From a bacterium (GTDB lineage: Bacteria > Actinomycetota > Acidimicrobiia > Spongiisociales > Spongiisociaceae): DNA of 64,000 bases. The notes beneath the pieces were generated by a model. It did not search any database. It was given only the letters and a program-made list of their open reading frames with translations, and was not told the DNA's origin. Below are positions 5,836-53,059 of the stretch, one piece after another. Position 1 is the first letter of the stretch. Every line of letters begins with the position of its first letter. A program made the position numbers and the translations under genes. The stretch covers positions 1 through 64,000 of the forward strand of contig JAPPHZ010000042.1 in NCBI GenBank assembly GCA_028820935.1. The letters are read 5' to 3'.

Positions 5836-6375
5836 CTAGCCGGCCCGTTCGATGCGGAGCTCGACTCCCTGGTTCTTCCAGACGTGGTCGCCGGCCCGGC
5901 GGAAGGCTCCCATGTCATCGGTTGCCACCCGGGCGAAGATGTTGGTGAGACCCACCCCTCCCGTGTCGCTGTAGAACATGGCGATGATCATGCGGTCGGG
6001 CCAGTAGGCGATGTTGCCCGCCTTCTGTGCCTTGGACTGGTTCTCGGGACCCAGGTAGGTCCGGATCGGGAACATCAACTCATCGCCGGCCAGGCGAGCA
6101 TGGTTGACGGTGCCGGAGAGGGGGAGCAGGTCACGGATGGCAGAGGCGGTCACCGGCGCTTCGTCGAGGAGGAGCGTGGCCCGGATCTCCTCGCCGGCCA
6201 CCTTGATCACTATGTCCGCGTCGCGGTCAGCTGGTCCTTCGATGATGCGGATCCCGGCTAGGCCGGCTTCGTCTCGGGCCGCAGCGGTGATCACGGTGGG
6301 CGGTTCCACCACCAACTCGGTCTTGCCTCGGCGGGCGACGGCCCTGATGTCCTCGGTGGTCAATACCCGGCGCAT
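5836..6375 (-). CDS. DUF3830/cyclophilin-like protein with EutQ/EutT-like N-terminal module (putative BMC cargo)
   Basis: This 179-aa protein has two parts. Residues 1-47 (MRRVLTTEDIR onward) match the N-terminus of the aldehyde dehydrogenase at 7647-9434 at 25 of 47 positions without gaps. They resemble the N-terminal segments of EutQ and EutT. Residues from about 60 to the end look like the DUF3830 cyclophilin-like family, with LLLDEAP, GPENQ, a FY pair and NIFARV in order. No catalytic activity is known for DUF3830. ATG 6375 is preferred over the upstream TTG at 6393 because GGAGAAGGA precedes it; it starts 4 nt after the BMC-T stop. The shared module suggests it is enclosed in the microcompartment (inference). 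Confidence 0.75.
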   Translation of the reverse strand: MRRVLTTEDIRAVARRGKTELVVEPPTVITAAARDEAGLAGIRIIEGPADRDADIVIKVAGEEIRATLLLDEAPVTASAIRDLLPLSGTVNHARLAGDELMFPIRTYLGPENQSKAQKAGNIAYWPDRMIIAMFYSDTGGVGLTNIFARVATDDMGAFRRAGDHVWKNQGVELRIERAG

Positions 6376-6379
6376 CGGA

Positions 6380-7015
6380 TCATCCTTCTCCAAGAGCCTC
6401 GAGCGCTACGCGGTGTCCGATCTCCACCTCCGCTTCGCTGCCCGCGAGGATAAGCCGCCCGGTGGCGCCATGCAGTCTCACCAGCACCATGCGGAGCGAG
6501 GTTTGTTTCTCCACCTCGTTGGCCGCCAGCGCCACGTACGCGGCCGGCTCGGTCTCCACGACCAGCATGGCGTCGCCTTCCCGGAGCCGGTCGCGGATGC
6601 CCATCCGGTTCACCAGCCCGGCCTCCGCCCCGGTCACGTTGTTGATGACCCGCGTGGTCACCAGGGAGGGCGCGATACCGGGCGCCGAGGAACTGCCGAT
6701 CATCCCCAACATGATCGTTCCCGCCTGGCGGACCGCGTCAGGATTGGCCGAATGGAGTTCGAGCGTCCCGTACCTCCGCTCGGCGACCAGCATCGAGGAG
6801 GAGTTCTCGGTGTTCTTGAGCGCGGCGTTGGCCAGCGAGAACACCAGGGTGGCAGGCGCCACCTCCACGTACAGCTGCGACATCCCCTCCAATGCCGTGC
6901 CATCCGGGTCGTCCCTTCCTACATAGGCCGCCCAGGCAGGCTGCATCTTGTCGACATACACGTAGGCGCGCAGGGAGTTGCCACCCCCGCCACCTGATTG
7001 CCCCGGACTCGTCAC
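6380..7015 (-). CDS. Microcompartment shell protein, BMC-T (tandem-domain trimer)
   Basis: This 211-aa protein has two BMC-type folds in tandem, as in pseudohexameric shell trimers. The first covers about residues 15-105 (LRAYVYVDKMQP start) and the second about 115-205 (SLVTTRVINN start). A Gly-rich N-terminal tail precedes them. The GTG at 7015 is chosen because GGGAGG lies just upstream and the only nearby ATG is followed by a stop after one codon. It begins one base after the BMC-P stop codon. Trimeric shell proteins usually carry a larger, sometimes gated pore for bulky metabolites or cofactors. It is the only BMC-T seen here. Confidence 0.88.
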   Translation of the reverse strand: MTSPGQSGGGGGNSLRAYVYVDKMQPAWAAYVGRDDPDGTALEGMSQLYVEVAPATLVFSLANAALKNTENSSSMLVAERRYGTLELHSANPDAVRQAGTIMLGMIGSSSAPGIAPSLVTTRVINNVTGAEAGLVNRMGIRDRLREGDAMLVVETEPAAYVALAANEVEKQTSLRMVLVRLHGATGRLILAGSEAEVEIGHRVALEALGEG

Positions 7016-7016
7016 C

Positions 7017-7283
7017 TCATCCTCCCGGGTCGTGGCTTGCTTCGTCGACGATGCCGACGATTGTCGCGTCGGTCGGCGCCGACGCGGTGGATTCCGGGAT
7101 CCTCGCCGCGGTTCCCTGAGCAACCAGCACCAGATCTCCCGACCCGGCGCCCACGGCGTCCATCGCCACGAACGACGAGGCGGGGTCGCCGCCCTCCGGC
7201 CGCACCACCAGCAGCTTGGCTCCTCCCATCCCGCCGGCCCGCACCGTCACGACGGTGCTTCCCGTAACACGGCACAACAACAT
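7017..7283 (-). CDS. Microcompartment vertex protein, BMC-P (EutN/CcmL family)
   Basis: This 88-aa protein is the pentamer that caps shell vertices. The N-terminal MLLCRVTGSTVVT, the central AKLLVVRP and the GAGSGDLVLVAQGTAAR segment are hallmarks of EutN/CcmL/CsoS4 proteins, and the length is normal for the family. It lies between BMC-H and BMC-T in one operon. Only one BMC-P gene is present, which is enough for a closed shell. Confidence 0.93.
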   Translation of the reverse strand: MLLCRVTGSTVVTVRAGGMGGAKLLVVRPEGGDPASSFVAMDAVGAGSGDLVLVAQGTAARIPESTASAPTDATIVGIVDEASHDPGG

Positions 7284-7354: not shown

Positions 7355-7633
7355 TCAGCCGTCGAGCAGAGCGCTCACCTTCCCCAAGTCCTCATGGGGC
7401 TTGGGAATCAGGTGGGCTGCGACGAGTTCCCCGACCTTCTTGGCCGCGGAGGCGCCTACGTCCACCGCCGACTTCACCGCACCGACCTCGCCCTGCACCA
7501 TGACCGTGACGTACCCGCCCCCGATCACGTCGCGCCCGACGACCTCGACACGAGCTGCCTTGGCCATCGCGTCGGTCGCTTCGATGGCGCCGACCAACCC
7601 ACGGGTCTCGATCAACCCTAGAGCACCTTCCAT
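7355..7633 (-). CDS. Microcompartment shell protein, BMC-H (hexamer)
   Basis: This 92-aa protein is the single-domain shell hexamer that makes most of the facets. It begins MEGALGLIETRG, a standard BMC-H start, and has the pore loop VIGGGY at about residues 37-41, where PduA-type proteins have KIGSG. The ATG at 7633 is set by a strong TGAGGAGG site whose first three bases are the stop codon of the upstream aldehyde dehydrogenase. The open frame extends further upstream but that is a shadow. It is the only BMC-H gene in the window, so the shell set is minimal: one H, one P and one T. Confidence 0.95.
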   Translation of the reverse strand: MEGALGLIETRGLVGAIEATDAMAKAARVEVVGRDVIGGGYVTVMVQGEVGAVKSAVDVGASAAKKVGELVAAHLIPKPHEDLGKVSALLDG

Positions 7634-7641
7634 GATCCGAA

Positions 7642-7649
7642 CCTCCTCA
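7642..7649 (-). promoter_or_regulatory. Ribosome binding site of BMC-H fused to the aldehyde dehydrogenase stop codon
   Basis: On the minus strand TGAGGAGG combines the dehydrogenase stop (TGA, 7647-7649) with a near-perfect Shine-Dalgarno sequence 8 nt before the BMC-H ATG. Terminating ribosomes would be placed at the BMC-H start. This would favour high shell-protein output and tie it to cargo expression. Confidence 0.75.
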
Positions 7650-9434
7650 GTTGCCTTCGTACCAATCGTTGAATCCGCGCCCGATATTGACGTGCACGTT
7701 CTTGGTCTCCAAATACTCGTGGAGCGACTCCAGACCCAAATCGTGGCCGGTGCCACTCTCCTTGTAGCCGCCGAAGGGCGCCTCGCTCGGATACACGCCG
7801 AAGTGGTTTACCCAGATCGAGCCCGCTTCCAAGTCCCGTGCCACTCTATGCGCCTTGCCTACATCGGTGGTCCATATCCCGGCGGCTAATCCATAGCGGA
7901 CGTCGTTGGCCAGCCGGACCGCCTCCTCCTCGCCGCTGAACGGCATCACCACCGCCACCGGGCCGAATATCTCCTCCTGCGCGATCCTGAACCCGGGCTC
8001 GACGTTGACGAAGCAGGTCGGCCTGATGAAGTTACCCCGGGCGAGCGAGGGGTCGTCAGGCGGGGCGCCGCCCCCTAGGACCGTCGCTCCCTCCGCCCTG
8101 CCGATGTCCACGTACTCGTAGACCCGCTCCAGCTGCCGTTCGTTCACCAGCGGACCCAACTGCGTCTCCCACCGCCACGGCAGCCCGATCCGGATGGATG
8201 CCGCCCTGGCCGCGAAGCGTTCCACGAACTCGTCGTAGACCGTCCGCTCCACGAGAATCCTGGATCCGGCGGAGCAGACCTGGCCCTGCGCCAGGTAGAT
8301 ACCGAACAGGGCGCCGCTCACCGCCCGGTCCAGGTCGGCGTCGGCGAACACGATCGACGGCGACTTCCCTCCCAGTTCCAGGGAGACCCGTTTGATCGTC
8401 CCGGCCGATCCCCGCATCACCGAGCGGCCCACGACGGTCGAGCCCGTGAAGGCGATCTTGTCGACCCCCCGGTGCTCGACCAAGGCCTGGCCGGCGACCT
8501 CTCCGGCGCCCGGGACCACGTTGAACACGCCGGGCGGGAGACCGGCCTCCAGGCAGATGCGGCCCAACTCCAGGCACGACAACGGGGCGAGTTCCGGAGG
8601 CTTCAACACCACGGTGTTCCCGGCCGCCAGCGCCGCGGCCGCCTTCCGGCAGGCGATGTGGAGAGGGAAGTTCCACGGGATGATCATCCCCACCACCCCC
8701 ATCGGCTCCTTGCGCACGTAGTCCAGGGAGTCCTGCGGGAGCGCCAGCACCCTACCGTCGATGGCTCGTACCAGGCCCTGGAAGAACCGGAAGGGATCCC
8801 AGGATGCCGGAAGGTCGATCAGGGTGGTCTCCCTGATGGGCCGCCCCACGTCCTGGCTTTCCACCTTGGCCAGGAACTCGTGCTCCTGCTCGATACGCTC
8901 GGCAACCCTGAGCAGGAGATCGGCGCGCTCGGCCGGATCGAGGACGCGCCACTCGCGGTAGGCCCGCCTGGCGGCCCGGACCGCCAGGTCGACGTCATCG
9001 GTGGCGGCGGAAGCCACCTCCACGATGGTCTCGTTGGTCGCCGGGTCGACGGAACGGTTGGTGGCCCCTCCGGTTGCGTCCCGGAACTCGCCGTCGATCA
9101 GGAGCTTCGGGTGCATGCGGGCGGGGTCCGGCAGTCCCTCGAAGCGGGGTCCGGCGCTCGTGGTCGCCGTCGGCGACGCCGGCGCCGCGTCTCCAGCCGT
9201 GACCGCCGGAGCGCGGACCGGAGGCTGAGCCGGAGGAGGCGGGGCGGGACGAGGTCCGTCTGCCGCAGGAGGCCGGGGAGCGGCCAAGCTGGAGCCCTCT
9301 ACCAACCGCACCCCCAGCCGGTGCGCCTCGTCGAGGGCGGCGTCGGTCAGGACCGTCCCCTCGCGCATCATCAACTCGAACTCGCCCACCCCGGCCAGTT
9401 CGCGGATGTCCTCGGTGGTCACGAAGCGCCTCAT
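7647..9434 (-). CDS. Aldehyde dehydrogenase with N-terminal EutQ/EutT-like module (putative BMC cargo)
   Basis: This 595-aa protein has an N-terminal module (1-47), a Pro/Ala-rich linker (about 48-97) and an aldehyde dehydrogenase domain (about 105-595). Catalytic residues are in place: N255 in PWNFP, K278 in LKPP, E353 in ELGGKSP and nucleophile C387 in GQVCSAGS. The active-site pattern is that of NAD(P)-dependent, acid-forming dehydrogenases (betaine-aldehyde type) rather than the CoA-acylating PduP/EutE type. The extra N-terminal module is shared with the DUF3830 protein at 5836-6375 and resembles EutQ/EutT N-termini, so it is probably a recruitment tag for the shell. It lies 12 bp after an unknown gene and overlaps the BMC-H ribosome site. 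The substrate aldehyde is unknown. Confidence 0.92.
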   Translation of the reverse strand: MRRFVTTEDIRELAGVGEFELMMREGTVLTDAALDEAHRLGVRLVEGSSLAAPRPPAADGPRPAPPPPAQPPVRAPAVTAGDAAPASPTATTSAGPRFEGLPDPARMHPKLLIDGEFRDATGGATNRSVDPATNETIVEVASAATDDVDLAVRAARRAYREWRVLDPAERADLLLRVAERIEQEHEFLAKVESQDVGRPIRETTLIDLPASWDPFRFFQGLVRAIDGRVLALPQDSLDYVRKEPMGVVGMIIPWNFPLHIACRKAAAALAAGNTVVLKPPELAPLSCLELGRICLEAGLPPGVFNVVPGAGEVAGQALVEHRGVDKIAFTGSTVVGRSVMRGSAGTIKRVSLELGGKSPSIVFADADLDRAVSGALFGIYLAQGQVCSAGSRILVERTVYDEFVERFAARAASIRIGLPWRWETQLGPLVNERQLERVYEYVDIGRAEGATVLGGGAPPDDPSLARGNFIRPTCFVNVEPGFRIAQEEIFGPVAVVMPFSGEEEAVRLANDVRYGLAAGIWTTDVGKAHRVARDLEAGSIWVNHFGVYPSEAPFGGYKESGTGHDLGLESLHEYLETKNVHVNIGRGFNDWYEGN

Positions 9435-9446
9435 GGCAGCCCGGCC

Positions 9447-10262
9447 TCAGACCAGCTCATCGACTATCCCTCGCGCTTCGGACAGGGTCAGAATCCGGTA
9501 CGGATCCTGGAGAACCCGCTCGCGGAAGTCCGCCACCGTCCAAGGATCACCCCCGTACTCCCGGTCCTGGTCGGTCAGCTCCTTGGGTTGGAGTAGGGCA
9601 TCGGGAGTGTGGATGCATGCCACCTCCTGGGAGGTCATCCCGTCCGGCGCCAGCCCGATCCACATCAGTCCCAGGTCGGGGCGGGCCAGGAAGAAGGGGG
9701 GAACTCCGAGATCGAAGCCGCGCGTTGCCAGGCTGTCGATCAGGAGCGGAGCCAGGTCGTGGGGATGCAGGTCGGTGTGGAGATAGGTATGGAAGTGCTC
9801 GGTCTCGTCATCGGCGTACCATCCCAAGACCTGCTGCCAATGGTCGGACGCGATGTAGGAGAGGATGCCCTCCCGATCCGCATCGGTGGCCCTTCTCGGA
9901 CCCACATCGGCCAGGTAGCTGCGCTCCCCCTCGTCGGTCCAGACGTCCAGGAAGTCCTCGTGGTGGTCGGCAATCACCGACGAGTCGTCGTATCGCCATA
10001 CCACGTTGAGCACCGGCCTGGTCTCCGGGTAGATCTTGATCCAGCCCCATTCGCCTACGAACGCGTGGCCCACGTTGCGAACCCTGCGGCCGATCCGGTC
10101 CAGATACTCCACGAAGAGGAACTCGAGCGAGAGCGGATGGACCACGGTGGTCACCTTGGCCTCGAAGAAGCTCACTCCAGGATCGTCCAGCAGGGCCTGG
10201 GCGTCCGCCCAGACGTCCGACCGGAAGAAGTCGAGGAGCCCGTCCCGCAGCGTCGTAGGCAT
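9447..10262 (-). CDS. Conserved hypothetical protein, 271 aa (paralogue of 42749-43564)
   Basis: I do not recognise this family. The ATG at 10262 starts the part that aligns with a second 271-aa protein at 42749-43564; the longer open frame upstream is shadow. Shared features are an N-terminal FFRSD.WA, HP..LEFLF, a VGHA(F/V)VG strand, GERSYL, a DD.E/DIEHFH region with clustered histidines, HP.DLA and a C-terminal LSEAR. The aromatic, His- and Asp-rich make-up suggests a metal-binding or cofactor-free enzyme, but that is a guess. It sits between the oxidoreductase and the microcompartment dehydrogenase, so it is probably part of the same pathway. Confidence 0.8.
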   Translation of the reverse strand: MPTTLRDGLLDFFRSDVWADAQALLDDPGVSFFEAKVTTVVHPLSLEFLFVEYLDRIGRRVRNVGHAFVGEWGWIKIYPETRPVLNVVWRYDDSSVIADHHEDFLDVWTDEGERSYLADVGPRRATDADREGILSYIASDHWQQVLGWYADDETEHFHTYLHTDLHPHDLAPLLIDSLATRGFDLGVPPFFLARPDLGLMWIGLAPDGMTSQEVACIHTPDALLQPKELTDQDREYGGDPWTVADFRERVLQDPYRILTLSEARGIVDELV

Positions 10263-10317: not shown

Positions 10318-11376
10318 TCACAGGTGGATGACTTGCTGCGTCTCGGCCGACTCGTAGGCGGCGAACACCACCTCCATCGTCTTGGCGTTGTCGGACGCCA
10401 CGGTGACCGGTGGGATGCCGTTGTCCAGGTAGTCGAGAAATGCCATATAGCACCCCACGGTGCCCTCCCGGAGTTCGTCGGCCGGCCAGGGCGCCGAGTA
10501 CCCGACGGTGTGCCCGCCCGGGGGCTTGGTGTCCGTGGGGGGATAGTGCCAGCCCTCCAGGCCCGCCTTGTCGGTGTACAGCTTGTAGGGGTGGTCAGGC
10601 TGGTTGATGAAGATCGAGCCGATGGTGCCGTCAATGCGCATACGCATCACGTACTGGTCGCCGCGGGCCGACACCCAGCACTCATCGATGCGGGCGATCA
10701 CCCCGTTGTCGAACTCCATCGTGATCATGGCGAAGTTCTCGCCGGCCAGCTGCTGGGTTGCGATCTGGCGGGTCATGGCGTGCACCCTCACCACGTCGGC
10801 GTCGACCAGATGCCGGATCACGTCGATGTAGTGGACGTCCTGCTCGTACATGAGAAAGCGTTCCTGGTCGCGCCGGTAGGTGGGGTCGATGTCGTTGATG
10901 AACTCCTCGACCCGCACGTGGAAGAGGTCGCCGATCAGCCCGGCGTCGATCCGCTGCTTGGCATCGACCAGGTCGGGGTACCACCAGAAGTTCTCGGCGA
11001 TCATGAACTTGATCCCGCTGTCCTCCACCACCTGGACCAGCTCCGCCACCTCCTCCGGTGAGGCGGCCATCGGCTTCTCGCATATGACATGAACGCCGGC
11101 CGCGGCGGCCGCCTTGGTGACCGCCAGGTGGAGGAAGGGCGGCACGCAGACGGAGACGATGTCCAGGTCGGCCTGCTCGATCATTTCCTCGAAGGGGCCG
11201 TAGACCTCGGGGATCCCGTACTCGTCCGCCCTGAGCTGGGCCAGGTCCATGTCCAGGTCGGCGATCGCCACCGTCTCAACGCCCTCGACGCGTTGCTGGA
11301 CGGGCAGGTGGTAGACCGAGGCGGCGAAACCCGCCCCCACGCATCCGACCCTGTAGTTACCGTCGCGTTCGGCCAC
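10318..11376 (-). CDS. Gfo/Idh/MocA family oxidoreductase
   Basis: This 352-aa NAD(P)-dependent oxidoreductase has an N-terminal Rossmann fold with VGCVGAGFAASVYH and the family motif EKPMA near residue 100. A C-terminal alpha/beta substrate-binding domain follows (FINDIDPTYRRD region). The GTG at 11376 follows GAGGAGG at good spacing. Members oxidise or reduce sugars, inositols and related alcohols. Its position in the microcompartment operon suggests it makes or consumes an intermediate upstream of the aldehyde dehydrogenase step (inference). Confidence 0.92.
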   Translation of the reverse strand: MAERDGNYRVGCVGAGFAASVYHLPVQQRVEGVETVAIADLDMDLAQLRADEYGIPEVYGPFEEMIEQADLDIVSVCVPPFLHLAVTKAAAAAGVHVICEKPMAASPEEVAELVQVVEDSGIKFMIAENFWWYPDLVDAKQRIDAGLIGDLFHVRVEEFINDIDPTYRRDQERFLMYEQDVHYIDVIRHLVDADVVRVHAMTRQIATQQLAGENFAMITMEFDNGVIARIDECWVSARGDQYVMRMRIDGTIGSIFINQPDHPYKLYTDKAGLEGWHYPPTDTKPPGGHTVGYSAPWPADELREGTVGCYMAFLDYLDNGIPPVTVASDNAKTMEVVFAAYESAETQQVIHL

Positions 11377-11396: not shown

Positions 11397-11864
11397 CTAG
11401 TCGGTCATTTCCTCGTACTTGCTGCTTATGTCATCCCACGGGACCAGAGTGTCGGCCCACCAATGGAGGCGGCCCAGGTAGACGCTCAGCTCGTGGGTGT
11501 AGGCCAGGTACTCCTCGCGTGTCTCCATGTGGTCCAGCGCGTCCAGAGAGCCCCGCACCAGCGCCACGCTGTCGTCGAGCCCGTACCAGTTGTGGAGAAT
11601 GCCCAATTGCGCATCGCAGAACATCCGCACCACCTGCTTGAGCGTCTCCAGGTCGAGCGACTCGTCCCGGCCGGCGTTGCGTAGCACGGCCATGTCGTCG
11701 GCGAAGGCCCTCGTGTTCTCCTCGGCGCAGATGATCATCGGCCATCCGTACCCCTTGGTCCCCCGCCGGGTCGTGAGCCTCCTGACCTCCTCCGGCATCT
11801 CGTACCAGATGGCGTTGGTGGCGCGGTTCAGCACTTCAACGGTGTTGGCAACCCTGTAGTCCAT
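11397..11864 (-). CDS. Hypothetical protein, 155 aa
   Basis: I do not recognise this protein. It is soluble, mostly helical by composition and rich in Trp, Tyr, Leu and acidic residues, with no signal peptide or membrane segment. Segments such as RRGTKGYGWPMIICAEE and LHWWADTLVPWDD could form a ligand pocket. It lies 20 bp before the Gfo/Idh/MocA gene and about 50 bp after the phosphotriesterase homologue, so it is co-transcribed with the microcompartment pathway. Confidence 0.75.
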   Translation of the reverse strand: MDYRVANTVEVLNRATNAIWYEMPEEVRRLTTRRGTKGYGWPMIICAEENTRAFADDMAVLRNAGRDESLDLETLKQVVRMFCDAQLGILHNWYGLDDSVALVRGSLDALDHMETREEYLAYTHELSVYLGRLHWWADTLVPWDDISSKYEEMTD

Positions 11865-11917: not shown

Positions 11918-12964
11918 TCAGGCTGCCTTCATGGCGAGGGTGAGAGCACGTGCCGGGTTGTCGATGACGGCTCCGTAGACGGTGTCGATCGGCATGCCCC
12001 GCTCCCTGAGCGACGGGAGGATGACGTTCATGATGTGGTCCCAGCCCGGGCCGCCGAAGCTGGACAGGCGGGCCTTCAGGCCGATGTCGTGCGCGAAGAG
12101 GAGCTTGTCGGCCAGACCGTCCTCCACCATCCACTCGACCGTGGACATCCGGTCCTCGTCGGATACGTATACCCCGTCGGTCGGGCAAGGATGGCCCCAG
12201 TCGTCCAACTCCAGGAAGGTGTCGAAGGCGGCGATCTCCTCCAGATAGGGCCGGTCGTCGGTGCACAGGTCCAGGTGGCCGGCGATGACCCGGCTGGGAT
12301 GCACGCCGTGGCCCTCGATCAGGAACTCGAGAATGGACGGCATCAGGCGCTGCTCGTGGAGCGCATGGATCTGGATGGCCGCACCGGTGGCGTGGTGGGT
12401 GATGGCGGCGGCCTCCAGGACCTTCCATTCGTTGGGCGTCACCGGGTCGGAGGTGCCGATCTCCCCGATGATCCCGCAGCGGATGTCGGTCCCGTCGGCG
12501 CCGGTGGTGATGTCACCGATCATTCCCTCTGCCAACTCCTCGGCGGTCATCGAGTCCACGTACCAGGGATGGGCATGGTCGACGTAGTACCCGGTGCCCG
12601 AGATGATGTTGATCCCGACATCGTCGGCGACCTTCTTCAATCCCCACACGTCCCTGCCGAGACCGAGGTTCGACGAGTCGACCACGCTCTGGCCCAGGGC
12701 CATCTTGAACCGCCTGATCTCCTGCGCGGTGAGCCTCCAGTCGGTGTTGATCAGGTTGTCGCGGCTGCGGTACGGAAACTCCCGGAGCAGCGCGGCGTTA
12801 TGGGGCGTGACGGGGACGTACGAATCGGAACCCAAGCCCCGATGTGACCCTTCCAGGAACCACATCAGGCAGGTGAACAGCAGATGCTCGTGCATCATGG
12901 TCACGCCGAGTTGGTGAGGCTCGATGGGACCGTTGACCGTGATGATCTTGCCTGGGTCTCTCAT
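11918..12964 (-). CDS. Phosphotriesterase-family metal-dependent hydrolase (copy 1)
   Basis: This 348-aa TIM-barrel amidohydrolase starts at ATG 12964, after GGAG at good spacing; the open frame further upstream is non-coding. Metal-site motifs are HEH (H25, H27), GIIGEIG with a Glu where bacterial phosphotriesterase has a carboxylated Lys, AGHLD and FAHD. The group contains many lactonases and esterases, so a phosphotriester substrate should not be assumed. It is the first gene of the microcompartment operon. A close paralogue (roughly 80% identical by eye in the first half) is at 39469-40518, with two more distant ones at 37241 and 46345. A MITE-like element lies just upstream at 13001-13090. 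Confidence 0.93.
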   Translation of the reverse strand: MRDPGKIITVNGPIEPHQLGVTMMHEHLLFTCLMWFLEGSHRGLGSDSYVPVTPHNAALLREFPYRSRDNLINTDWRLTAQEIRRFKMALGQSVVDSSNLGLGRDVWGLKKVADDVGINIISGTGYYVDHAHPWYVDSMTAEELAEGMIGDITTGADGTDIRCGIIGEIGTSDPVTPNEWKVLEAAAITHHATGAAIQIHALHEQRLMPSILEFLIEGHGVHPSRVIAGHLDLCTDDRPYLEEIAAFDTFLELDDWGHPCPTDGVYVSDEDRMSTVEWMVEDGLADKLLFAHDIGLKARLSSFGGPGWDHIMNVILPSLRERGMPIDTVYGAVIDNPARALTLAMKAA

Positions 12965-13000
12965 GGTTTCTCCGTCGGCTCGTCCCGTGACACTCGGAAG

Positions 13001-13090
13001 GGTACCGAAAAATGTCCGGGTGGCCCGATATTCGGCTACAAACCCCACGTAATGCCAGCGCGGGCCAACCTAAACCCGTCTTTGAGCACC
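13001..13090 (-). mobile_element. MITE-like 90-bp element, copy A
   Basis: Read on the minus strand, this stretch begins GGTGCTCAAAGACGGG and ends GGACATTTTTCGGTACC. The ends form an imperfect inverted repeat. The whole stretch aligns with 16962-17054 on the plus strand, strongest in the last 50 bp. The two copies are in inverted orientation about 3.9 kb apart. It has no transposase, so a MITE or a relic of IS ends is the best reading. A conserved leader or regulatory sequence is the alternative, because each copy lies upstream of a hydrolase gene. Confidence 0.6.
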
Positions 13091-13719: not shown

Positions 13720-14628
13720 ATGGCCAGAAGTAGTCGTCGGCGAGGTGTCTCGCCCCCGGCGCGAACTCCGAAGCAGTCGTTGCTGGTCGCACAGGCCGCC
13801 TTCGTCCCGGTGATCCTGGCGATCGTCTGGTACTTGGTCACCAGGGAGACCCAGCTGGACCCTATGAGCCTGCCCTCGTCGTTACGCCTGTTCTTTACGA
13901 CCGACAGTTCGGGCCTTACCCGCATCGACCCGGTGTACCTGCCCCCGCCCGAAGCGGTCTACAACAGCGCGATCGAACTCTCCGACATTCTCCCCGGCGC
14001 CCTCTGGATCTCGATGCGGATCGTGCTGCTAGGCCTCGCCATCGGGGGTGCAGCCGGCATCGCCACCGGCCTCATCCTCGGCTATAGCCCGACGATCCGG
14101 CGGTACTTCGAGGCCACGCTCGACAACCTGGTGCGCCCGGTCCCGTTCATCGCGTTCATCTACTTGTTCATCCTCTGGTTCAGGGTCGAGGCGGTCCGGC
14201 TCGTCGTGCTGGTGGCCATCGGGATATTCCTGCTTCTGAGCCTGACGACTCTCGAGGCGGTACGGAACGTCCCTCAGATCTACGTCAAGGCGGCCCTGAC
14301 CGCCGGGGCGGAACGGTTCCGCATCTACCGAACCGTTGTCGTACCGGCCATCACGCCGCACCTGATCGCTTCCGTGCGGTTGGGAGCCGCCTACGCCTGG
14401 GGGCTGCTCGTCGCAGCCGAGCTGGCCGGTAGCCAGCAGGGTCTGGGCTACATCCTGATCAGCCGGGTCAACTTCTACCTGGACACGGCTTCAGCGGTGC
14501 TCATCGTGCTCATCTTCTGCTCGCTGGCGGTGGTCTTCGACCAATCGGTGCGGTACGCCGCCGGTCGACTGACCAGGTGGAGCCCTCGGGCGAGGAGAGG
14601 AATGGTCGGCCACATGTTGGGGAATTGA
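13720..14628 (+). CDS. ABC transporter permease, NitT/TauT (SsuC-like) type
   Basis: This 302-aa permease has about six membrane segments and the EAA loop (EAVRNVPQIYVKAALTAGAE followed by YRTVVVPAI). It has an insertion after the first membrane segment and an ILWF motif typical of this subfamily. It starts at ATG 13720 after AGAGGA. The next gene is a second, homologous permease 6 bp downstream, and a binding protein follows, but no ATPase gene is in the cassette. The ATPase at 47427-48209, which serves a homologous permease pair, could also energise this one (inference). Confidence 0.9.
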   Translation: MARSSRRRGVSPPARTPKQSLLVAQAAFVPVILAIVWYLVTRETQLDPMSLPSSLRLFFTTDSSGLTRIDPVYLPPPEAVYNSAIELSDILPGALWISMRIVLLGLAIGGAAGIATGLILGYSPTIRRYFEATLDNLVRPVPFIAFIYLFILWFRVEAVRLVVLVAIGIFLLLSLTTLEAVRNVPQIYVKAALTAGAERFRIYRTVVVPAITPHLIASVRLGAAYAWGLLVAAELAGSQQGLGYILISRVNFYLDTASAVLIVLIFCSLAVVFDQSVRYAAGRLTRWSPRARRGMVGHMLGN

Positions 14629-14634
14629 CGCGAG

Positions 14635-15495
14635 ATGCGGCGACTTGGCCTCCTACGGTCCAGAACGGAGAGGAGAGACGTTCAACTCCAGATCCAACCG
14701 GTGACCGCCGGACCGGCGCGCCGGCTGGCCGAGGCGTCGGTGGTGCCGCTCGTCTTGGTAGCGGTCTGGTATGCGCTGACTCGGAACATCCTCGATTCCG
14801 GCATATACCCCGGCCCGGACAAGGTGATCGCCTCCCTGGTGGAGATCATCGATCTCATCCCCTCTGCTACCTGGGTGTCGCTGCGCATGGTGTTGCTGGG
14901 AATGGCGGTGGGTAGCGTCGCCGGGTTGGCCACGGGCATCGTCTTCGGTTACAGCGCGTTCATCCGTCGGTTCTTCGAGGCAACCCTCGACAACCTGGTC
15001 CGTCCCGTTCCGTTGTTCGCGCTGATCCCGTTCTTCATCCTCTGGTTCGGAGTCGGGTACGCGCCCCAGGTGTCTCTGGTCGCGCTGGCCATGTTCCTCC
15101 TGTGGACGCTTGTCACCTTGGAGGCCATACGCAACGTCCCGCACATCTATATGCAGGCCGCCCTTACCACGGGAGCGAGCCGCTTTCACATCTACCGGAC
15201 GGTGGTCGTGCCGGCCATCATCCCGCACCTGGTGGGCTCTCTCCGCCTGGCCGCAGCCTCTGCCTGGGGCCTCGATGCGGCCGTGGAACTCATAGGCGGT
15301 TCCCGGACCGGACTGGGCTTCATCCTGCTGGTCCGTAACCAGTATCTCGATCCGGCCGGAATGATGATGATCGTGTTCATCTTCTGCACGATGGCGATCA
15401 TCTTCGACCAGACGGTTCGCCTTATTTCGGCGAGAATAATTCGCTGGAGCCCACGCAGCGACCGCGGCCTCGTAGGTAGCATGCTCGGTAACTAA
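14635..15495 (+). CDS. ABC transporter permease, NitT/TauT type, partner subunit
   Basis: This 286-aa permease is homologous to the preceding gene and to the pair at 52153-53932. It has the EAA loop EAIRNVPHIYMQAALTTGAS with FHIYRTVVVPAIIPH after it. Usual taurine or nitrate importers have one permease gene forming a homodimer, so a pair suggests a heterodimer. It ends with the same LGN/LGSR-like tail seen in all four permeases of this type in the window. Confidence 0.9.
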   Translation: MRRLGLLRSRTERRDVQLQIQPVTAGPARRLAEASVVPLVLVAVWYALTRNILDSGIYPGPDKVIASLVEIIDLIPSATWVSLRMVLLGMAVGSVAGLATGIVFGYSAFIRRFFEATLDNLVRPVPLFALIPFFILWFGVGYAPQVSLVALAMFLLWTLVTLEAIRNVPHIYMQAALTTGASRFHIYRTVVVPAIIPHLVGSLRLAAASAWGLDAAVELIGGSRTGLGFILLVRNQYLDPAGMMMIVFIFCTMAIIFDQTVRLISARIIRWSPRSDRGLVGSMLGN

Positions 15496-15582
15496 GTGGG
15501 AAGTAGGCTGCCGGCGCGGCCTAATGCGGCCTAATTGATGCACCGGCAGGAGAGTACGCACTCCCACGCGATGGGAGGCAAA

Positions 15583-16944
15583 ATGCGACGCTCACCCAGG
15601 AAATGGCTCTTCATCCCGATCATGATGGTCCTAGCCCTGATGGCGACGGCTTGCGGGAGCGACGAACCTGCCGCAACTACGGCCGCGCCCACCACGGCCG
15701 CGCCCACCACCACCGCCGCGCCGACCACCACGGCCGCACCCACCACCACGGCGGCACCCACCACCACGGCGGCGCCCGCGCCCACCACCACCGCCGCTCC
15801 CCCCGAGACTGTGGTGGTCCGGGAGGTAATCCGCGAGGTGGTCGTGGAGCCGGAGGAAGAGGAGATGGGTCCGATGATCCCGGACGCCCCGCTCGTGACG
15901 GTGCGGATCAACGGCGGACCTTTCTATCCGTTCAACCTCTGGGCCGCATCCAAGGAGTTGGGCATCGCCGACGAACTCAACATCGAGTTGGACATATCTA
16001 GCCAGGGGTTCTTCCCGACCGCCGCGCTGAAGCGGGGCGAGTTCGACGTGATCGCCTCGTGCCCGGCCTGCGCGTTCGGCGTGTACGAGAGCATTCCGGA
16101 GTTCCGCAACTGGATCACGTCCTACCAGTGGAGGGGATTCCAGCTGATCGGCCGCGCCGATCCCGAGACCGGCGCCGCGGTACACAAGCCTTGGATCGAC
16201 TTCTTCGTCGACGCCGGCGGCGACCTGGAGCAAGCCAACCGGGAGTTCGCGGCATCGCTCGCCGGACGGAGCTTCGCGATCTGGGATCCTGGTGGCATCG
16301 CGACGCTCAAGGCCCTGATCGAGCAGGGCGGGTTGACCCTCGACGATATCGAGATCATTGGCTTCGCCGACATCAACGTGGCCTCGACTTCGTTCATAGC
16401 CGGCGAGGGTGACTACCACTCCGGTGACAGCATCCAGATGCACCGAATGCTGACCGCACCCGACCTGAGAGACAAGTTCGTATCGGCTGCCCCGTTCCAG
16501 GCCTACGGCTCGACCGGGTTGTGGTACAGCACCTTCGCGTCCACCCAGGACTGGCTCGACGCCAACGAGGAAACGGCGCTGCGAATGCTGGCGATCTGGT
16601 ATCGGACCACCCGGTACCTGCACAACCGTACCGCCGACGTGCTCCCGCCCATGCACGAGGCGGTGCGCCGGGCCGGCGGAGTCCTGGTGGACGACGAGAC
16701 GCTCAAGGCCGAGTTGTTCAACATCGAGGACTTCGTGCGGTACCAGGATGCGTGGGATCACTACTTCGCCGACGGTTCGCCCACCAACATGGACCTGTCC
16801 ATCGCGCTTACGCACAAGAACGCGGTGGAGGCAGGGACCGTGGCGGCCGACTCAGACTGGCGGATCTTCGAGGTCGAGAAGGATTGGTTCCAGAAACTCA
16901 TGGCCAGACAGGACCTCGTCAACTGGATCATGAAACCGCTGTAG
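15583..16944 (+). CDS. NitT/TauT-type ABC substrate-binding lipoprotein with CxxC motif
   Basis: This 453-aa protein starts at ATG 15583 after GGGAGG; earlier in-frame starts lack such a site. It has a lipoprotein signal (MATAC, Cys 24), a Thr/Ala/Pro repeat linker (about 31-72), a VVVREVIREVVVEPEEEE hinge, then a periplasmic-binding fold. C160 and C163 form a CPAC motif at the start of a segment that aligns with SCQIC in the binding protein at 56565-57854. Both are followed by an EFRNW/EYRNY...GFxLIGRA stretch. The two permeases upstream are its transport partners. Ligand unknown; the paired cysteines are unusual for this class. Confidence 0.88.
   Translation: MRRSPRKWLFIPIMMVLALMATACGSDEPAATTAAPTTAAPTTTAAPTTTAAPTTTAAPTTTAAPAPTTTAAPPETVVVREVIREVVVEPEEEEMGPMIPDAPLVTVRINGGPFYPFNLWAASKELGIADELNIELDISSQGFFPTAALKRGEFDVIASCPACAFGVYESIPEFRNWITSYQWRGFQLIGRADPETGAAVHKPWIDFFVDAGGDLEQANREFAASLAGRSFAIWDPGGIATLKALIEQGGLTLDDIEIIGFADINVASTSFIAGEGDYHSGDSIQMHRMLTAPDLRDKFVSAAPFQAYGSTGLWYSTFASTQDWLDANEETALRMLAIWYRTTRYLHNRTADVLPPMHEAVRRAGGVLVDDETLKAELFNIEDFVRYQDAWDHYFADGSPTNMDLSIALTHKNAVEAGTVAADSDWRIFEVEKDWFQKLMARQDLVNWIMKPL
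15679..15796 (+). repeat. Thr/Ala/Pro linker repeat in binding-protein gene
   Basis: Tandem imperfect repeats of about 18-21 bp encode TTTAAP units right after the lipobox of the binding protein. Such linkers hold the ligand domain away from the membrane or cell wall. The DNA is repetitive and may vary in unit number between strains. Confidence 0.8.
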
Positions 16945-39468: not shown

Positions 39469-40518
39469 TCAGGCGGGCGACTCTACGGCGAGAGTCAGCA
39501 CCCGGCGCGGGTTGTCGATCAATATCTTGTTGATGATGTCGCGGGGAACGCCGTCCCTGCTCAGCGTGGGGATGATCACGTTCATGATGTGGTCGTATCC
39601 GGGCCCTCCGAAGCTGGACAGCCTCGCCTTGAGCCCGATGTCATGGGAGAACAGCAACTGGTCCTCATGGCCCTCCGAGATCATCCACTCGACGGCACCG
39701 ACCCGATCGGCGTCGGAGACGTACACGCCTTCGGTCGGGCACGGGTGTCCGAACCCGTCGAGTTCGAAGAAGGTGCCGTACTCGGCGACGCGCTTCATGT
39801 AGCTGGGGTCGCCGGTGGTCAAGTCCATGTGTCCGGCGATCACCCTCGTGGGATGCACGCCCATCTCCTTGACCAGGAGGTCCAAGATGTCGGGCATCAG
39901 CCTCTGCTCATGCAAGGCGTGGATCTGGATCGCAGCGCCCGTAGCGTGGTGGGTGATGGCGGCGGCTCTCAAGGCCTTCCACTCGGAGGGAGCGACCGGA
40001 TCCGATGTCCCGATCTCCCCGATCAGCCCGCAGCGGATCTCGGTGCCATCCGCACCCTCGGTGATGTCCCGGATCATGCCCTCCGCCATATCGTGCTCCG
40101 TCATCGACTCGACGTACCAGGGCTGGGCGTGGTGGACGTAGTACCCGGTACCCGAGATGATGTTGACCCCGACATCATCGGCGATCTTGCGCAACCCCCA
40201 CACATCCCTGCCGAGGCCGAGGTCCGAGGAGTCGACGACGGTGCGGCCCAGCGCCATCTTGAAACGCCTTACCTCCATGGCGGTCAGGTACCAGTCGGTG
40301 TTGATCAGGTTGTCCCGGTTGTGGTACGGGAACTCCCGGAGCAGGGCCGCGTTCTGGGCGGTCACGGGCATGTATGCGTCCGATCCCAGGCCGCGATGGC
40401 TCTCCTCCAGGAACCACATGAGGCACGTGAACAGCAGATGCTCGTGCATCAGCGTGATGCCGAGTTGGTCGGGCTCCATGGGGCCGTTGACGGTGATTAC
40501 CTTGCCCTGATCCTTCAC
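39469..40518 (-). CDS. Phosphotriesterase-family metal-dependent hydrolase (copy 3)
   Basis: This 349-aa protein is a close paralogue of the first gene of the microcompartment operon (11918-12964), sharing nearly all of the N-terminal ITVNGP.EP.QLG, CLMWFLE.SHRGLGSD and NLINTDW segments. It has the same metal motifs (HEH, GLIGEIG, AGHMD, FSHD). GTG 40518 is set by GAGGAGG. It is followed by the class V PLP enzyme gene. The duplication suggests related substrates are processed by two pathways. Confidence 0.93.
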   Translation of the reverse strand: MKDQGKVITVNGPMEPDQLGITLMHEHLLFTCLMWFLEESHRGLGSDAYMPVTAQNAALLREFPYHNRDNLINTDWYLTAMEVRRFKMALGRTVVDSSDLGLGRDVWGLRKIADDVGVNIISGTGYYVHHAQPWYVESMTEHDMAEGMIRDITEGADGTEIRCGLIGEIGTSDPVAPSEWKALRAAAITHHATGAAIQIHALHEQRLMPDILDLLVKEMGVHPTRVIAGHMDLTTGDPSYMKRVAEYGTFFELDGFGHPCPTEGVYVSDADRVGAVEWMISEGHEDQLLFSHDIGLKARLSSFGGPGYDHIMNVIIPTLSRDGVPRDIINKILIDNPRRVLTLAVESPA

Positions 40519-42748: not shown

Positions 42749-43564
42749 TTAAGGCCTGAGCACCTTCGACAGCACGGCCCGCGCCTCGCTGAGCGTTACA
42801 GGTCGGTAGGGATCCTTGGCGATGAACTCCCGCAGTTGTGAAATGGTGAAGCCGTCGCCGCCGTAAGCCCGGTCGGCGTCGGTGAGCTCCTGGGGCTCCA
42901 GGACCGCTCCCGGGGTGTGGGTTGCCACGAACTCCATGGACTTGGTGCCCGGCGGGGCGTAACCGATCCACATCGATCCGATGTCGGGTCTCGGCAGGTA
43001 GTAGGGCTCGACCTCGCCGTAGCCGGCATCCCGAATGGCGTCCGTGCAGCGTTCGGCCAGGTCATAGGGATGGATCTCGGTCAGCAGGAAGTCATGGAAG
43101 TGCTCGATGTCCGGATCGCGCATCTTCCCGAGCATCTCGTCCCAGTGTTCGGAGGCGAAGTAGCGGTCGATGGCGTCGTGGTCGGAGTCGTTGATCCGCC
43201 TCGGGATCACGTCGTCGAGGTAGGACCGCTCGCCGGCGTCGCCGAGGAGGACGGTCCCGCCGTCGGGATCCGGGCCGATGAGGGAGTCCTCCCCGTATGT
43301 CCACATCAGGAAGAAGGAGGGCCGGTCGGCGGTGTAGTACTTGACGAGTCCCCGGTTACCCACCACGGCGTGGCCCACGTTGACCACATCCTTGCCCATG
43401 GCGGCCAGATACCGGTCGAACAGGAACTCCAAGGTGACCGGGTGGACACTCGTGGAGAGCATCACCTCGTGGAGGGTCAGGTCGGACCGGCGCATCAGGT
43501 CGATGTTCTCCGCCCAGTAGTCGGAGCGGAAGAACGTGACCAGCTCTTCGACCGTGGACGTCAT
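42749..43564 (-). CDS. Conserved hypothetical protein, 271 aa (paralogue of 9447-10262)
   Basis: This protein has exactly the same length as the one beside the microcompartment and the same landmarks: FFRSDYWA at the start, HPVTLEFLF, VGHAVVG, GERSYLDD, DIEHFHDFL, HPYDLAE and LSEAR at the end. I do not recognise the family. It is the last gene of the hydantoinase/transport operon, 16 bp after the threonine-synthase-like gene. Its presence in two catabolic operons, each with a phosphotriesterase homologue, argues for an enzymatic or carrier role in related pathways. Confidence 0.82.
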   Translation of the reverse strand: MTSTVEELVTFFRSDYWAENIDLMRRSDLTLHEVMLSTSVHPVTLEFLFDRYLAAMGKDVVNVGHAVVGNRGLVKYYTADRPSFFLMWTYGEDSLIGPDPDGGTVLLGDAGERSYLDDVIPRRINDSDHDAIDRYFASEHWDEMLGKMRDPDIEHFHDFLLTEIHPYDLAERCTDAIRDAGYGEVEPYYLPRPDIGSMWIGYAPPGTKSMEFVATHTPGAVLEPQELTDADRAYGGDGFTISQLREFIAKDPYRPVTLSEARAVLSKVLRP

Positions 43565-43580: not shown

Positions 43581-44798
43581 TCAATCCCCCGACATCAACC
43601 GGTCCAGGACAGCCTGTCCCGGGTTGACGAGTTCCTCGCCGGGAACCCGGCCTGACAATACTTCGGGCCACTTCGGCCCGGCGCCCGTTATGCAGCAAAC
43701 CACGAAGTCGCCGGGTTCGATCACTCCCTGGCGCGCCAACTCCCATGCACCGGCGAGGGCGGCTGCCGAGGCAGGCTCGGGACTCACCCCTACCTGCGCC
43801 GCCCGATGGAGGGCTTCGAAGATCGCATCGTCGGTGACTTCGACCGCGGTCCCGCCCGAGTCGCGGATCGCCTGGAGCGCTATCCGCCCTCCCGTGTCGT
43901 CGGCGATCGAAAGCGCCACCGTGTCGGGGCCGGGATGTACCGGAACGTTGTCCAATCCCTTCTCTATAGCCTCGACGATCGGGTTGGCACCCGCCGCCTG
44001 CACCCCATGCACCCGGGGGAGCGACTCGGTAAGACCGAGGCGGTACAGCTCCTGGAAGCCCTTCCAGGGGCCGTACAACCCATCGCCGGCGGCCACGGGG
44101 AACAGGTAGTGATCCGGCGCCCGTCCCAAAGACAGCACCGCGTCATAGGCCATGGTCTTGTATCCCTCCACTCCGTACGGTGTCGATACGGGCATGGGGG
44201 TCATGTAGGTCGAGGGGTACCAGCCGTGTTCCTCTACGAAGGCTTGGAGCGGGGGCTTGCGGTTCATCTCCACGACCACGGTCGCCCCGAACAGGCGCAT
44301 CCAGTCCCTTTGCGTCCTGGGCGCCCGAGGATCGGCCAGCACCACGCAGCGCATCCCGGCCCGGGCCGCGTAGGCGGCGGCGCTCATGCCGTGGTTGCCG
44401 GTGGTGGAGCACACCACTCCGTCGAAGCCGAGTTGCCGGGCCATGGATATCGAGACCGAATGGAAGCGGTCCTTGAATGCGTAGGTGGGGTTGACGGTCT
44501 CGTTCTGGAGGTAGAGGAAGGGCAGCGGGTTCCCGCCCGAACGGGGAACCCGGATCATGGGCGTACCGCCCTCCCCGAGCGTGATCCTCTCGGCGCCAGC
44601 GGGGAGCGGGAGGAGTTCGGCGTAGCGCCACACTGACGCCGACCGCCGGGCCCACCTTTCCAGGGACACGACCGAGCGGACCGCCGCCTCGTTGTACATC
44701 ACCTCGAGGGCCTCGCCACATGCCGGGCAGCCCCGGAAGTAGGCGCCAAGGTCGTAGTCGACCGCGCACCTGATGCACCGCAGGCCTTTTGCGAACAT
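43581..44798 (-). CDS. Threonine synthase-like PLP enzyme with N-terminal zinc ribbon
   Basis: This 405-aa fold-type II PLP enzyme begins with a zinc-ribbon pair (C8-C11 and C24-C27). The PLP Lys is K109 in NPTYAFKDR and a Gly-rich phosphate loop is in TTGNHGMS. Such proteins include threonine synthase, cysteate synthase and 2,3-diaminopropionate lyase-like enzymes. ATG 44798 fits a nearby GAGG; the longer frame upstream is shadow. In this operon a beta-elimination or replacement on an amino acid released by the hydantoinase is plausible (inference). Confidence 0.88.
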   Translation of the reverse strand: MFAKGLRCIRCAVDYDLGAYFRGCPACGEALEVMYNEAAVRSVVSLERWARRSASVWRYAELLPLPAGAERITLGEGGTPMIRVPRSGGNPLPFLYLQNETVNPTYAFKDRFHSVSISMARQLGFDGVVCSTTGNHGMSAAAYAARAGMRCVVLADPRAPRTQRDWMRLFGATVVVEMNRKPPLQAFVEEHGWYPSTYMTPMPVSTPYGVEGYKTMAYDAVLSLGRAPDHYLFPVAAGDGLYGPWKGFQELYRLGLTESLPRVHGVQAAGANPIVEAIEKGLDNVPVHPGPDTVALSIADDTGGRIALQAIRDSGGTAVEVTDDAIFEALHRAAQVGVSPEPASAAALAGAWELARQGVIEPGDFVVCCITGAGPKWPEVLSGRVPGEELVNPGQAVLDRLMSGD

Positions 44799-44856
44799 CC
44801 TCAGCCTCTGTGAACGGTCACGGAGCGGATCGTGGGGCCTAGCGGCGGGGGAATTC

Positions 44857-45801
44857 TCAGCCCGCGGCCGCAGCCCACGGCTCGACGTTGATCTCCTCCA
44901 GGGTGAGCACCGCGTCGGAGGAGAAGGCGTCGATCGGGGTCTCCTGGGTGGCGTACCCGTCCAGCCACGGCGTCCGGTAGCCGTCATCCGACCAGAGGAC
45001 CGGGAAGAAGTTGTCGTCGAAGTCCTGCTGTCCGGGCGCGAAGTAGCGGCTGTAGGCGCGGTGGCGGATCCGGGGATGGTGCCGGGATGCAGCCGGAATC
45101 ATGTGGATGCTGTAGGACCGCCGGATGTTCCCGGGCCGGGTGTTGGGCCCGCTCCCGTGCCATATCCAGCCCGTGTGGAAGCCGGCAGATCCGGCCCCGA
45201 AGACCAACGGTACCAACTCGACCTCCTCGCCCTCGGGGGCGAATTGCCGCACGTAGTCGGTCCAGCCATCCATGGTGTCGCGGGTGATCTGGGTGGTGCC
45301 CGGCGCCGGCTGCGGTCCCCACTTGTGGCTTCCCCGCACGTAGACGAGAGTCCCCCCGTCGGCGTAGGTGTCGTCGAGTGCGATCCAGCAGGTCCAGTTC
45401 CACACCGGATCGACCCAGCACATGAATGCCGCGTCCTGGTGGATGTCGAAGGGCTTGCCGCCCTCCGGCTTGTACATGGCGACATCGGCCCAGAGCCGGG
45501 CGCTCGAAGCCCCCTCCAGCTGGCATGCCAGCTTGCCGAAGGAACCACTGAACGTGTGCTTGGCCACCACCGGATCGGCCCGCCACAGCCCGGCCAGCAC
45601 CCGGTGGGCATCGACGGGGTCACGGCCCTTCTGCCAGTAGTACTCGTCCGGCCAGTTGACCAGGTCGTGCTGCCCGTCGAAGATGCGGTCGTATCTCTCC
45701 CGCAACTCCATCACCGCGTCCATGTCGATCAGGTCCTCCACGATCAGGAACCCGTCTTCGCGATATTGCTGGATCTGCGCCTCGGTGAACTGCTCGATCA
45801 C
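44857..45801 (-). CDS. Phytanoyl-CoA dioxygenase (PhyH) family protein
   Basis: This 314-aa Fe(II)/2-oxoglutarate oxygenase has the HxD iron motif in DIHQDAAF, the distal His in GWIWHGSGPN and a 2-oxoglutarate-binding Arg shortly after (NIRRSYS). GTG 45801 is chosen because GGGAGG lies 6 nt upstream; TTG 45807 overlaps that region. Family members hydroxylate diverse small molecules. It is upstream of the threonine-synthase-like gene in the same operon. Confidence 0.9.
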   Translation of the reverse strand: MIEQFTEAQIQQYREDGFLIVEDLIDMDAVMELRERYDRIFDGQHDLVNWPDEYYWQKGRDPVDAHRVLAGLWRADPVVAKHTFSGSFGKLACQLEGASSARLWADVAMYKPEGGKPFDIHQDAAFMCWVDPVWNWTCWIALDDTYADGGTLVYVRGSHKWGPQPAPGTTQITRDTMDGWTDYVRQFAPEGEEVELVPLVFGAGSAGFHTGWIWHGSGPNTRPGNIRRSYSIHMIPAASRHHPRIRHRAYSRYFAPGQQDFDDNFFPVLWSDDGYRTPWLDGYATQETPIDAFSSDAVLTLEEINVEPWAAAAG

Positions 45802-45934
45802 TGCCAACCTCCCGGAAACCTCGGCCGCTCGCGACTATACCCAGCCAGGCTACGCGAGGTACCTTCAGGATGCCTGGTCTACTGCGGAGAGCAACTGTAC
45901 GGGCTCTCTCCGGCTCGGCCGCGGGCCGCCAGGT

Positions 45935-46344: not shown

Positions 46345-47397
46345 TCAGACCGCGAAGATACGCCGGGGGTTCTTCACCAGCATGTCGTCGATCTGGTCCT
46401 CCGTCACCCCCAACTCGCGTAGCTGCGGCACGATCTCGTTGAGTATGTAGGCGTACCCCTTGCCGCCGTACTCCACGAAGTGGATCTTCAGGCAGTTGTC
46501 GTGGGCCAGCATCAACTGGTTGCTGTAGCCGTCGGCGCACATCTGGGCGAGGGTCTCGACCCGCTCCCGGTCGGAGACCCAGTGGTCGCCGCCGAACAGC
46601 AGGTGAGAGTCGTTCCACGGCGTTCCCCGGAACAGGTCGTAGTCGATCATGACGCCCCGATCCATCACCGACTCATGGTACTTGTAATCGGGGCAACTGC
46701 CGTCCATGTGGCTCATGTACACCTTGTCGAGGTTGGCGCCCTCCTCCTCGAGAATGTCGATGTAGCGGTGGGCCTCCTTCATGAAGACCATCGGGTGAAC
46801 GGTGAGCGGAACTCCGGTCGCGGCCTGGGCTCTTCCCCCGGCGCGGAGGACCTTCTCCTCCTGGGGGTGGAGGGGCTCGCACATGCCCAACTCGCCGATG
46901 ACCCCTGCCTTGACATCCGTTCCCTGGATACCCACCTCGATGTCCGTGATCAGCATCTCGGCCAACTCGCCGACCGATGCGGTGGCGTGCCCCGGCGGGT
47001 GGGACGGGGCGATGTACCACCCGGTCGACGCCACCACGTGGAGTCCGGTGGCGCGGCTCGCCTCTGCCAGAGCATCCGGCCACCAACCCGGTATCTTGCC
47101 GCTCACGTCGATGATGCTCTGCCCGCCGGCGTCGGCATACATCTGTAGCTCTCGGATCGCCACATCGAGTTCCGTCATGTTCAGGTTGTCGCGGGAGATG
47201 TAGGGTCGCTCGGCCAGGGTCTCGTAGGCTTCCCGGGTCACCGGGGCCTCGCCCAGAGCCTGCACCTCCGGCGGGTCGTCCGGACCGGGAGGCTCCCAGA
47301 ACAGGTCGCCGCTGTCGATGACGATGTGCTCGTGGCTGAGGGTGACTCCCAGATCCTCCGGCTCTATCTCTCCCAGAACGGTACGGACCTTCGCCAT
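46345..47397 (-). CDS. Phosphotriesterase-family metal-dependent hydrolase (copy 4)
   Basis: This 350-aa member has HEH, GVIGELG (bridging Glu), TVHPM, MSHMD and LAHDN in order. ATG 47397 follows GAGAGGAGG. It lies between the ATPase and VOC genes of the hydantoinase operon. It differs clearly from copies 1 and 3, so it is not a recent duplicate. Confidence 0.92.
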   Translation of the reverse strand: MAKVRTVLGEIEPEDLGVTLSHEHIVIDSGDLFWEPPGPDDPPEVQALGEAPVTREAYETLAERPYISRDNLNMTELDVAIRELQMYADAGGQSIIDVSGKIPGWWPDALAEASRATGLHVVASTGWYIAPSHPPGHATASVGELAEMLITDIEVGIQGTDVKAGVIGELGMCEPLHPQEEKVLRAGGRAQAATGVPLTVHPMVFMKEAHRYIDILEEEGANLDKVYMSHMDGSCPDYKYHESVMDRGVMIDYDLFRGTPWNDSHLLFGGDHWVSDRERVETLAQMCADGYSNQLMLAHDNCLKIHFVEYGGKGYAYILNEIVPQLRELGVTEDQIDDMLVKNPRRIFAV

Positions 47398-53052: not shown

Positions 53053-53059
53053 CGGCCGC

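Follow-up and report, generated by a model that had tools for sequence, protein, structure and literature searches.

A duplicated family of 271-residue proteins with likely VOC-type tandem modules in microcompartment and hydantoinase operons of Acidimicrobiia

The vicinal oxygen chelate (VOC) superfamily, which includes glyoxalase I, HPPD, extradiol dioxygenases, TxDE/TflA and TnmS, is built from tandem βαβββ modules with acidic or histidine residues on strands β1 and β4. One member, the toxoflavin-degrading enzyme TxDE, belongs to the superfamily without apparent sequence identity and binds Mn(II) through His-60, Glu-113 and Glu-138 (PMC3143149). A VOC-type fold is also found in the HGLS/DUF1338 family (PF07063; HglS, FLO7, YdcJ and 3LHO), where the site of HglS combines two His and a Glu with an Arg four positions beyond the first His (PMC7286885). 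Described bacterial microcompartment (BMC) loci combine BMC-H, BMC-P and BMC-T shell genes with N-terminally tagged aldehyde dehydrogenases; the BMC catalogue, at least in its main text, includes no phosphotriesterase and no cyclophilin (PMC8217296), and a literature search for microcompartments with phosphotriesterase, DUF3830 or cucumopine synthase found nothing relevant.

The 64,000-nucleotide stretch of DNA analysed here (the window) encodes two proteins of equal length that a preliminary description had singled out, and both open reading frames are present on the minus strand:

9447..10262, minus strand: copy 1 (P0001), 271 aa, two VOC-like modules predicted at about residues 5-100 and 127-220, candidate ligands E34, H158 and E213
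42749..43564, minus strand: copy 2 (P0002), 271 aa, paralogue of copy 1, candidate ligands E33, H157 and E211

Aligned over 269 residues with a single gap, the two proteins share 45% identity and 64% similarity (E 7e-83), and the His/Asp-rich motif noticed earlier occurs in both, as ETEHFH in copy 1 and DIEHFH in copy 2. Among orthologues of both copies from related genomes, dN (0.02-0.14) is well below dS (0.18-0.96) in every pair; thus, both copies are functional genes under purifying selection. Searches returned no match for the 271-aa proteins in Pfam (E<=1), NCBIfam (E 1) or PHROGs (E 10), and only chance-level matches when the family profile was compared with PDB sequences. Judged by their sequences, copies 1 and 2 are anciently diverged paralogues of one undescribed family. 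The absence from all three family databases, together with the predicted tandem modules, supports the original suggestion of a new family, one that routine annotation cannot see. We propose, with a probability of about 0.5, that these proteins are metal-dependent enzymes of an import-fed catabolic pathway, built from tandem VOC-like modules.

Each protein is itself the product of an internal duplication, a feature beyond those first described. A gap-free alignment joins residues 5-54 of copy 1 to the matching stretch of its own second half, and the half-against-half score was reached by none of 500 shuffles in either copy. Profile comparison of the halves with hhalign gave E 1.6e-7, and 1.1e-13 once a homologue from Sinorhizobium meliloti (see below) was added. 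In an AlphaFold2 model computed from 15 sequences of two close groups (pLDDT 92.6, pTM 0.86), each half consists of two helices followed by β-α-β-β-β, with strands (E) and helices (H) predicted at E30-39 H43-56 E61-69 E72-79 E84-91 in module 1 and E154-163 H167-180 E190-194 E199-204 E212-218 in module 2. The predicted chain therefore contains, in tandem, the βαβββ module that is the basic unit of the VOC superfamily. Modelled alone, the C-terminal half folded poorly (pLDDT 61), pointing to a single unit made of both halves. This isolated module was dropped as a fold query, its model being too poor.

The best-ranked Foldseek matches in the PDB are almost all VOC proteins: the binding proteins UcmS2 and TnmS2 come first, accompanied by glyoxalases, HPPD, extradiol dioxygenases and two HGLS (DUF1338) structures. 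Whole-chain TM-scores against VOC structures are only 0.12-0.22, and the full chain superposes on no solved structure. In VIA-align, single modules matched VOC proteins over about 55-66 residues at rmsd 2.4-3.8 and Z 4.0-4.4, where a Z of about 4 is not above the background described for the tool. The family also differs from known VOC proteins in lacking any sequence match to them, in having two extra helices before each module and in carrying an extra invariant T-x-x-H-P after β1. No profile match to VOC families was obtained, a customary though not essential mark of membership; hhalign against 12 PF00903 proteins of the same genome gave E 0.06-0.7 and no link, and a BFVD fold search returned nothing below E 0.01.

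The highest VIA-align score (Z 5.0, rmsd 4.0 over 95 residues) went to the Gfo/Idh-like C-terminal domain of an amine dehydrogenase, and a Gfo/Idh gene adjoins copy 1. This could suggest that the proteins have an open α/β sheet of that or another kind and play a metal-independent or subunit role, for example as partner of the adjacent Gfo/Idh enzyme. We consider this unlikely: copy 2 and the S. meliloti protein have no Gfo/Idh neighbour, VOC proteins rank first in Foldseek, and the internal tandem symmetry is foreign to Gfo/Idh. VOC is thus the best reading of the predicted fold, and the 271-aa proteins are likely members of the superfamily.

When the modules are aligned with each other and with the predicted strands, the β1 ligand position of VOC modules is occupied by E34 in module 1 and H158 in module 2, and the β4 position by N86 (F85 in copy 2) in module 1 and E213 in module 2. 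The positions of E34, H158 and E213 read E/H/E in all 10 aligned Acidimicrobiia sequences and H/H/D in S. meliloti, whose residues are H48, H179 and D236, with D105 at the fourth VOC position. T-x-x-H-P follows β1 in every module, and H156-x-H158 is common to all members. The Acidimicrobiia set has the same arrangement as TxDE, that is, His (β1) and Glu (β4) of one module with Glu (β1) of the other. We therefore regard E34, H158 and E213 as a candidate three-residue metal site, predicted to lie between the modules.

This site invites comparison with HGLS/DUF1338, which shares the VOC-type fold, the β1/β1/β4 ligand positions, a Foldseek match over the full chain and, in its short form (3LHO, 254 aa), a similar length. 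However, the HglS Arg is absent, the corresponding residues being E34...T38, H158 and E213 in Acidimicrobiia and H48...E52, H179 and D236 in S. meliloti. PF07063 matched none of three proteins of the 271-aa family, nor anything in 59 genomes including that of the window, and no HGLS chain was among the 50 VIA-align entries listed, a listing too short to exclude one. On the missing Arg and the lack of a match to the Pfam model, membership of HGLS/DUF1338 was rejected.

The family is narrowly distributed. A scan of an 84,980-species collection with short conserved peptides, which would miss divergent members, recovered 13 loci, every one from a metagenome-assembled genome; eight bear the title Acidimicrobiia or uncultured Acidimicrobiia and five only "bacterium". 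By profile search of 395 genomes from the class, both copies are present in the same 8, all within the window's own family (15 genomes), and the other 387 yielded no member. Across the phylum, the family profile and the S. meliloti protein, run against 296-396 genomes, matched only the window's own genome, and there were no relatives among viral contigs and phages.

One homologue was found outside the phylum, on a S. meliloti megaplasmid (NZ_CP146207.1, 988525-989406), where it is unannotated. It is full-length and 23-27% identical to the Acidimicrobiia proteins (E 8e-13 in the forward search and about 1e-16 in reverse), with the same internal duplication and the HxH and T-x-x-H-P motifs, but has H/D/H/D at the four ligand positions instead of E/N-or-F/H/E. 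Its gene lies in a run that encodes an NMT1-type binding protein (named from its sequence; within the ORF at 11764-13167 of locus L036), an ABC ATPase, a permease, the homologue, a PCC-domain protein and a 2-hydroxyacid dehydrogenase. The last two genes, and the lack of a phosphotriesterase (PTE), set this run apart from the Acidimicrobiia loci; the partner common to both lineages is a nitrate/taurine-type ABC importer, with ATPases that are 47% identical between the window and S. meliloti. The predicted metal site, the homologue in a rhizobium that can be cultured and the binding protein encoded in the same operon open the family's substrate to direct testing.

As the preliminary description had it, one protein sits in a microcompartment operon and the other in a hydantoinase operon. 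Copy 1 is flanked by Gfo/Idh dehydrogenase and aldehyde dehydrogenase (ALDH) genes just upstream of the shell genes, in the order PTE_1 - Cucumopine_C - Gfo/Idh - copy 1 - ALDH - BMC-H - BMC-P - BMC-T - DUF3830:

11918..13048, minus strand: PTE_1, PTE-family hydrolase (PF02126, E 1e-63), 73% identical to PTE_3
11397..11864, minus strand: single-domain Cucumopine_C protein (C-terminal helical domain, McbB/cucumopine synthase family)
10318..11376, minus strand: Gfo/Idh/MocA dehydrogenase, 55 bp upstream of copy 1
7647..9434, minus strand: aldehyde dehydrogenase, hydrolytic-type, with an N-terminal encapsulation-like peptide, 12 bp downstream of copy 1
7355..7636, minus strand: BMC-H shell protein
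7017..7283, minus strand: BMC-P (pentamer) shell protein, assigned by sequence reading and position
6380..7000, minus strand: BMC-T (CcmP-like) shell protein, start codon provisional
5836..6393, minus strand: DUF3830/cyclophilin-like protein with the same N-terminal encapsulation-like peptide as the ALDH
13720..16944, plus strand: divergent importer beside the operon, comprising two permeases and, at 15535-16944, an NMT1-type binding protein

The divergent importer is present in 4 of 7 copy-1 loci taken from other genomes. Compared with known BMC locus types, the cargo here is unusual in including a DUF3830/cyclophilin-like protein, together with the Cucumopine_C, PTE and 271-aa proteins. In every BMC locus seen, copy 1 lies between cargo and shell genes, as it might if it were a structural or cargo part of the compartment and not a pathway enzyme. 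This is very improbable. The N-terminal peptides of the ALDH and the DUF3830 protein match at 53% over 47 aa, and all-against-all BLAST found this peptide shared by those two proteins only and not by copy 1; in the model, the 271-aa protein begins directly with its fold and so lacks an encapsulation peptide of this type. There are also no shell genes beside copy 2 or the S. meliloti homologue. The 271-aa protein is a fixed member of this unusual microcompartment cluster.

In alignment with the McbB/cucumopine synthase structure 3x27, the stand-alone Cucumopine_C domain falls on its C-terminal half, and the cyclophilin-like part of the DUF3830 protein gave no match to 3x27. A split Pictet-Spenglerase-like enzyme inside the microcompartment is possible. 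One related genome retains a degenerate piece of a second Cucumopine_C gene, interrupted by a stop (G013:C230:12067-12150, locus L058).

Copy 2 lies in a run led by a HyuAB gene, in the order permeases - HyuAB - ABC ATPase - PTE_2 - PhyH - PLP enzyme - copy 2 - PTE_3; several copy-2 loci also hold an RraA-like gene, and in some a membrane-protein gene is inserted:

52153..54058, minus strand: two ABC permease genes
48271..52095, minus strand: fused HyuA-HyuB hydantoinase/caprolactamase-like enzyme
47427..48209, minus strand: ATPase of the nitrate/taurine-type ABC importer
46345..47397, minus strand: PTE_2, a distant PTE paralogue
45959-46306, minus strand: Pfam Glyoxalase (canonical VOC) gene, between the PTE_2 and PhyH genes
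44857..45807, minus strand: PhyH-type Fe(II)/2-oxoglutarate dioxygenase
43581..44900, minus strand: threonine-synthase-like PLP enzyme, 16 bp upstream of copy 2, start provisional
39469..40518, minus strand: PTE_3, PTE-family hydrolase, separated from copy 2 in the window by RraA-like and membrane-protein genes

In three sister genomes (G013, G010 and G011) copies 1 and 2 are only 8-12 kb apart and in the same orientation; the window thus seems to carry a single cluster broken into two operons. In G010, copy 1 has diverged much less from genus g1 (dS 0.18, loci L020-L025) than has copy 2 of the same contig (dS 0.73, L029-L030). This could mean that the microcompartment part recombined or was transferred, or that the contig is chimeric. 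Locus L019 (G002:C78, 1501-1680) preserves a short remnant of another copy-2-type gene, next to a dehydrogenase E1-alpha gene and adjoining an intact membrane protein like that at 41697-42389 of the window.

The preliminary description had drawn attention to a repeated pairing with PTE genes, of which the window holds four, those encoding PTE_1, PTE_2 and PTE_3 and a further one at 37145-38215 on the plus strand. Proximity alone is weak evidence, as the window's genome (G000) has 18 PTE genes and the chance of one within 4 kb of any point is about 4% per locus. The pairing is credible because PTE_1 and PTE_3 are paralogues: they share 73% identity, and only 26-33% with the window's other two PTEs. 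Their subfamily, both 271-aa paralogues and Cucumopine_C occur in the same 8 of the 15 family genomes, and the next best matches to the subfamily are at most 40% identical. A PTE_1/PTE_3-type gene stands beside the copies, or a few genes away, in Acidimicrobiia genomes. The gene at 39469, which had been described as close to the second protein, directly follows copy 2 in four other loci (L022, L027, L028 and L030). The PTE family as a whole is strongly expanded, with 14-23 matches in the other cluster-bearing genomes and 0-12 in those that lack the cluster.

Thus, the pairing is real, and within the lineage stronger than first claimed, but it is local to these Acidimicrobiia. A general tie to PTE pathways is not supported, given the 18 PTE genes, the union of both operons in one cluster in three genomes and the absence of any PTE gene from the 1.6-Mb plasmid of the S. 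meliloti homologue, so that not every family member has a PTE nearby. The same facts bear on whether the 271-aa protein is an obligate PTE partner that acts on the substrate or product of the hydrolase, a reading compatible with a metalloenzyme. Paralogy, shared distribution and the position of PTE_3 right after copy 2 speak for such a partnership. The S. meliloti plasmid and the 4% background speak against it, as do G011, where a lone PTE_1-type gene lies between copies 1 and 2 and no such gene follows copy 2, and the lower divergence of the PTE pair (73% identity) than of the 271-aa pair (45%). On balance, obligate partnership seems doubtful.

The genes that share operons with the family encode importer, hydrolase, dioxygenase, PLP-enzyme and dehydrogenase functions, at spacings of 12, 55 and 16 bp around the two copies. 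The preliminary description left a choice between a new enzyme and a binding protein. In the latter case, VOC-like modules would bind or sequester a pathway intermediate without catalysis, as TnmS/UcmS and bleomycin resistance proteins do; the first-ranked Foldseek matches, the importer genes that adjoin the gene in two lineages, and N or F at the β4 ligand position of module 1 in Acidimicrobiia are all consistent with this. However, so many invariant His, Asp and Glu residues across two divergent paralogues and a distant homologue, and the location within enzyme operons, fit catalysis better. We therefore favour a metalloenzyme and consider a purely binding role distinctly unlikely.

By sequence and prediction, each chain comprises two helix-helix-βαβββ units that depend on one another for folding. 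As a metalloenzyme, it may bind one divalent metal between its modules through E34, H158 and E213. Through this metal it could hold a carboxylate- or carbonyl-bearing intermediate by chelation and transform it by isomerisation, lyase or oxygenase chemistry, in catabolic pathways presumably fed by nitrate/taurine-type ABC importers. In Acidimicrobiia, a single pathway might use both copies, either at two of its steps or on two related intermediates, each copy beside a PTE-family hydrolase that would open or trim a ring or amide, and one branch may end in the microcompartment with its aldehyde dehydrogenase. A fuller scheme can be offered only tentatively and is unlikely to hold in all its parts: a metalloenzyme family without sequence kinship to known VOC families would work twice in a single undescribed Acidimicrobiia pathway that comprises lactam or hydantoin opening by HyuAB, PTE hydrolases, a split cucumopine-synthase/Pictet-Spenglerase-like enzyme and delivery of an aldehyde into a new BMC type. 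The pathway served may be more interesting than the 271-aa protein itself.

The window encodes two further pairs of close paralogues. Adjacent proteins encoded at 23340-24785 and 24742-26070 (minus strand) are 77.7% identical, and those encoded at 26387-27277 (plus strand; provisionally an amidohydrolase) and 59055-60701 are 75% identical.
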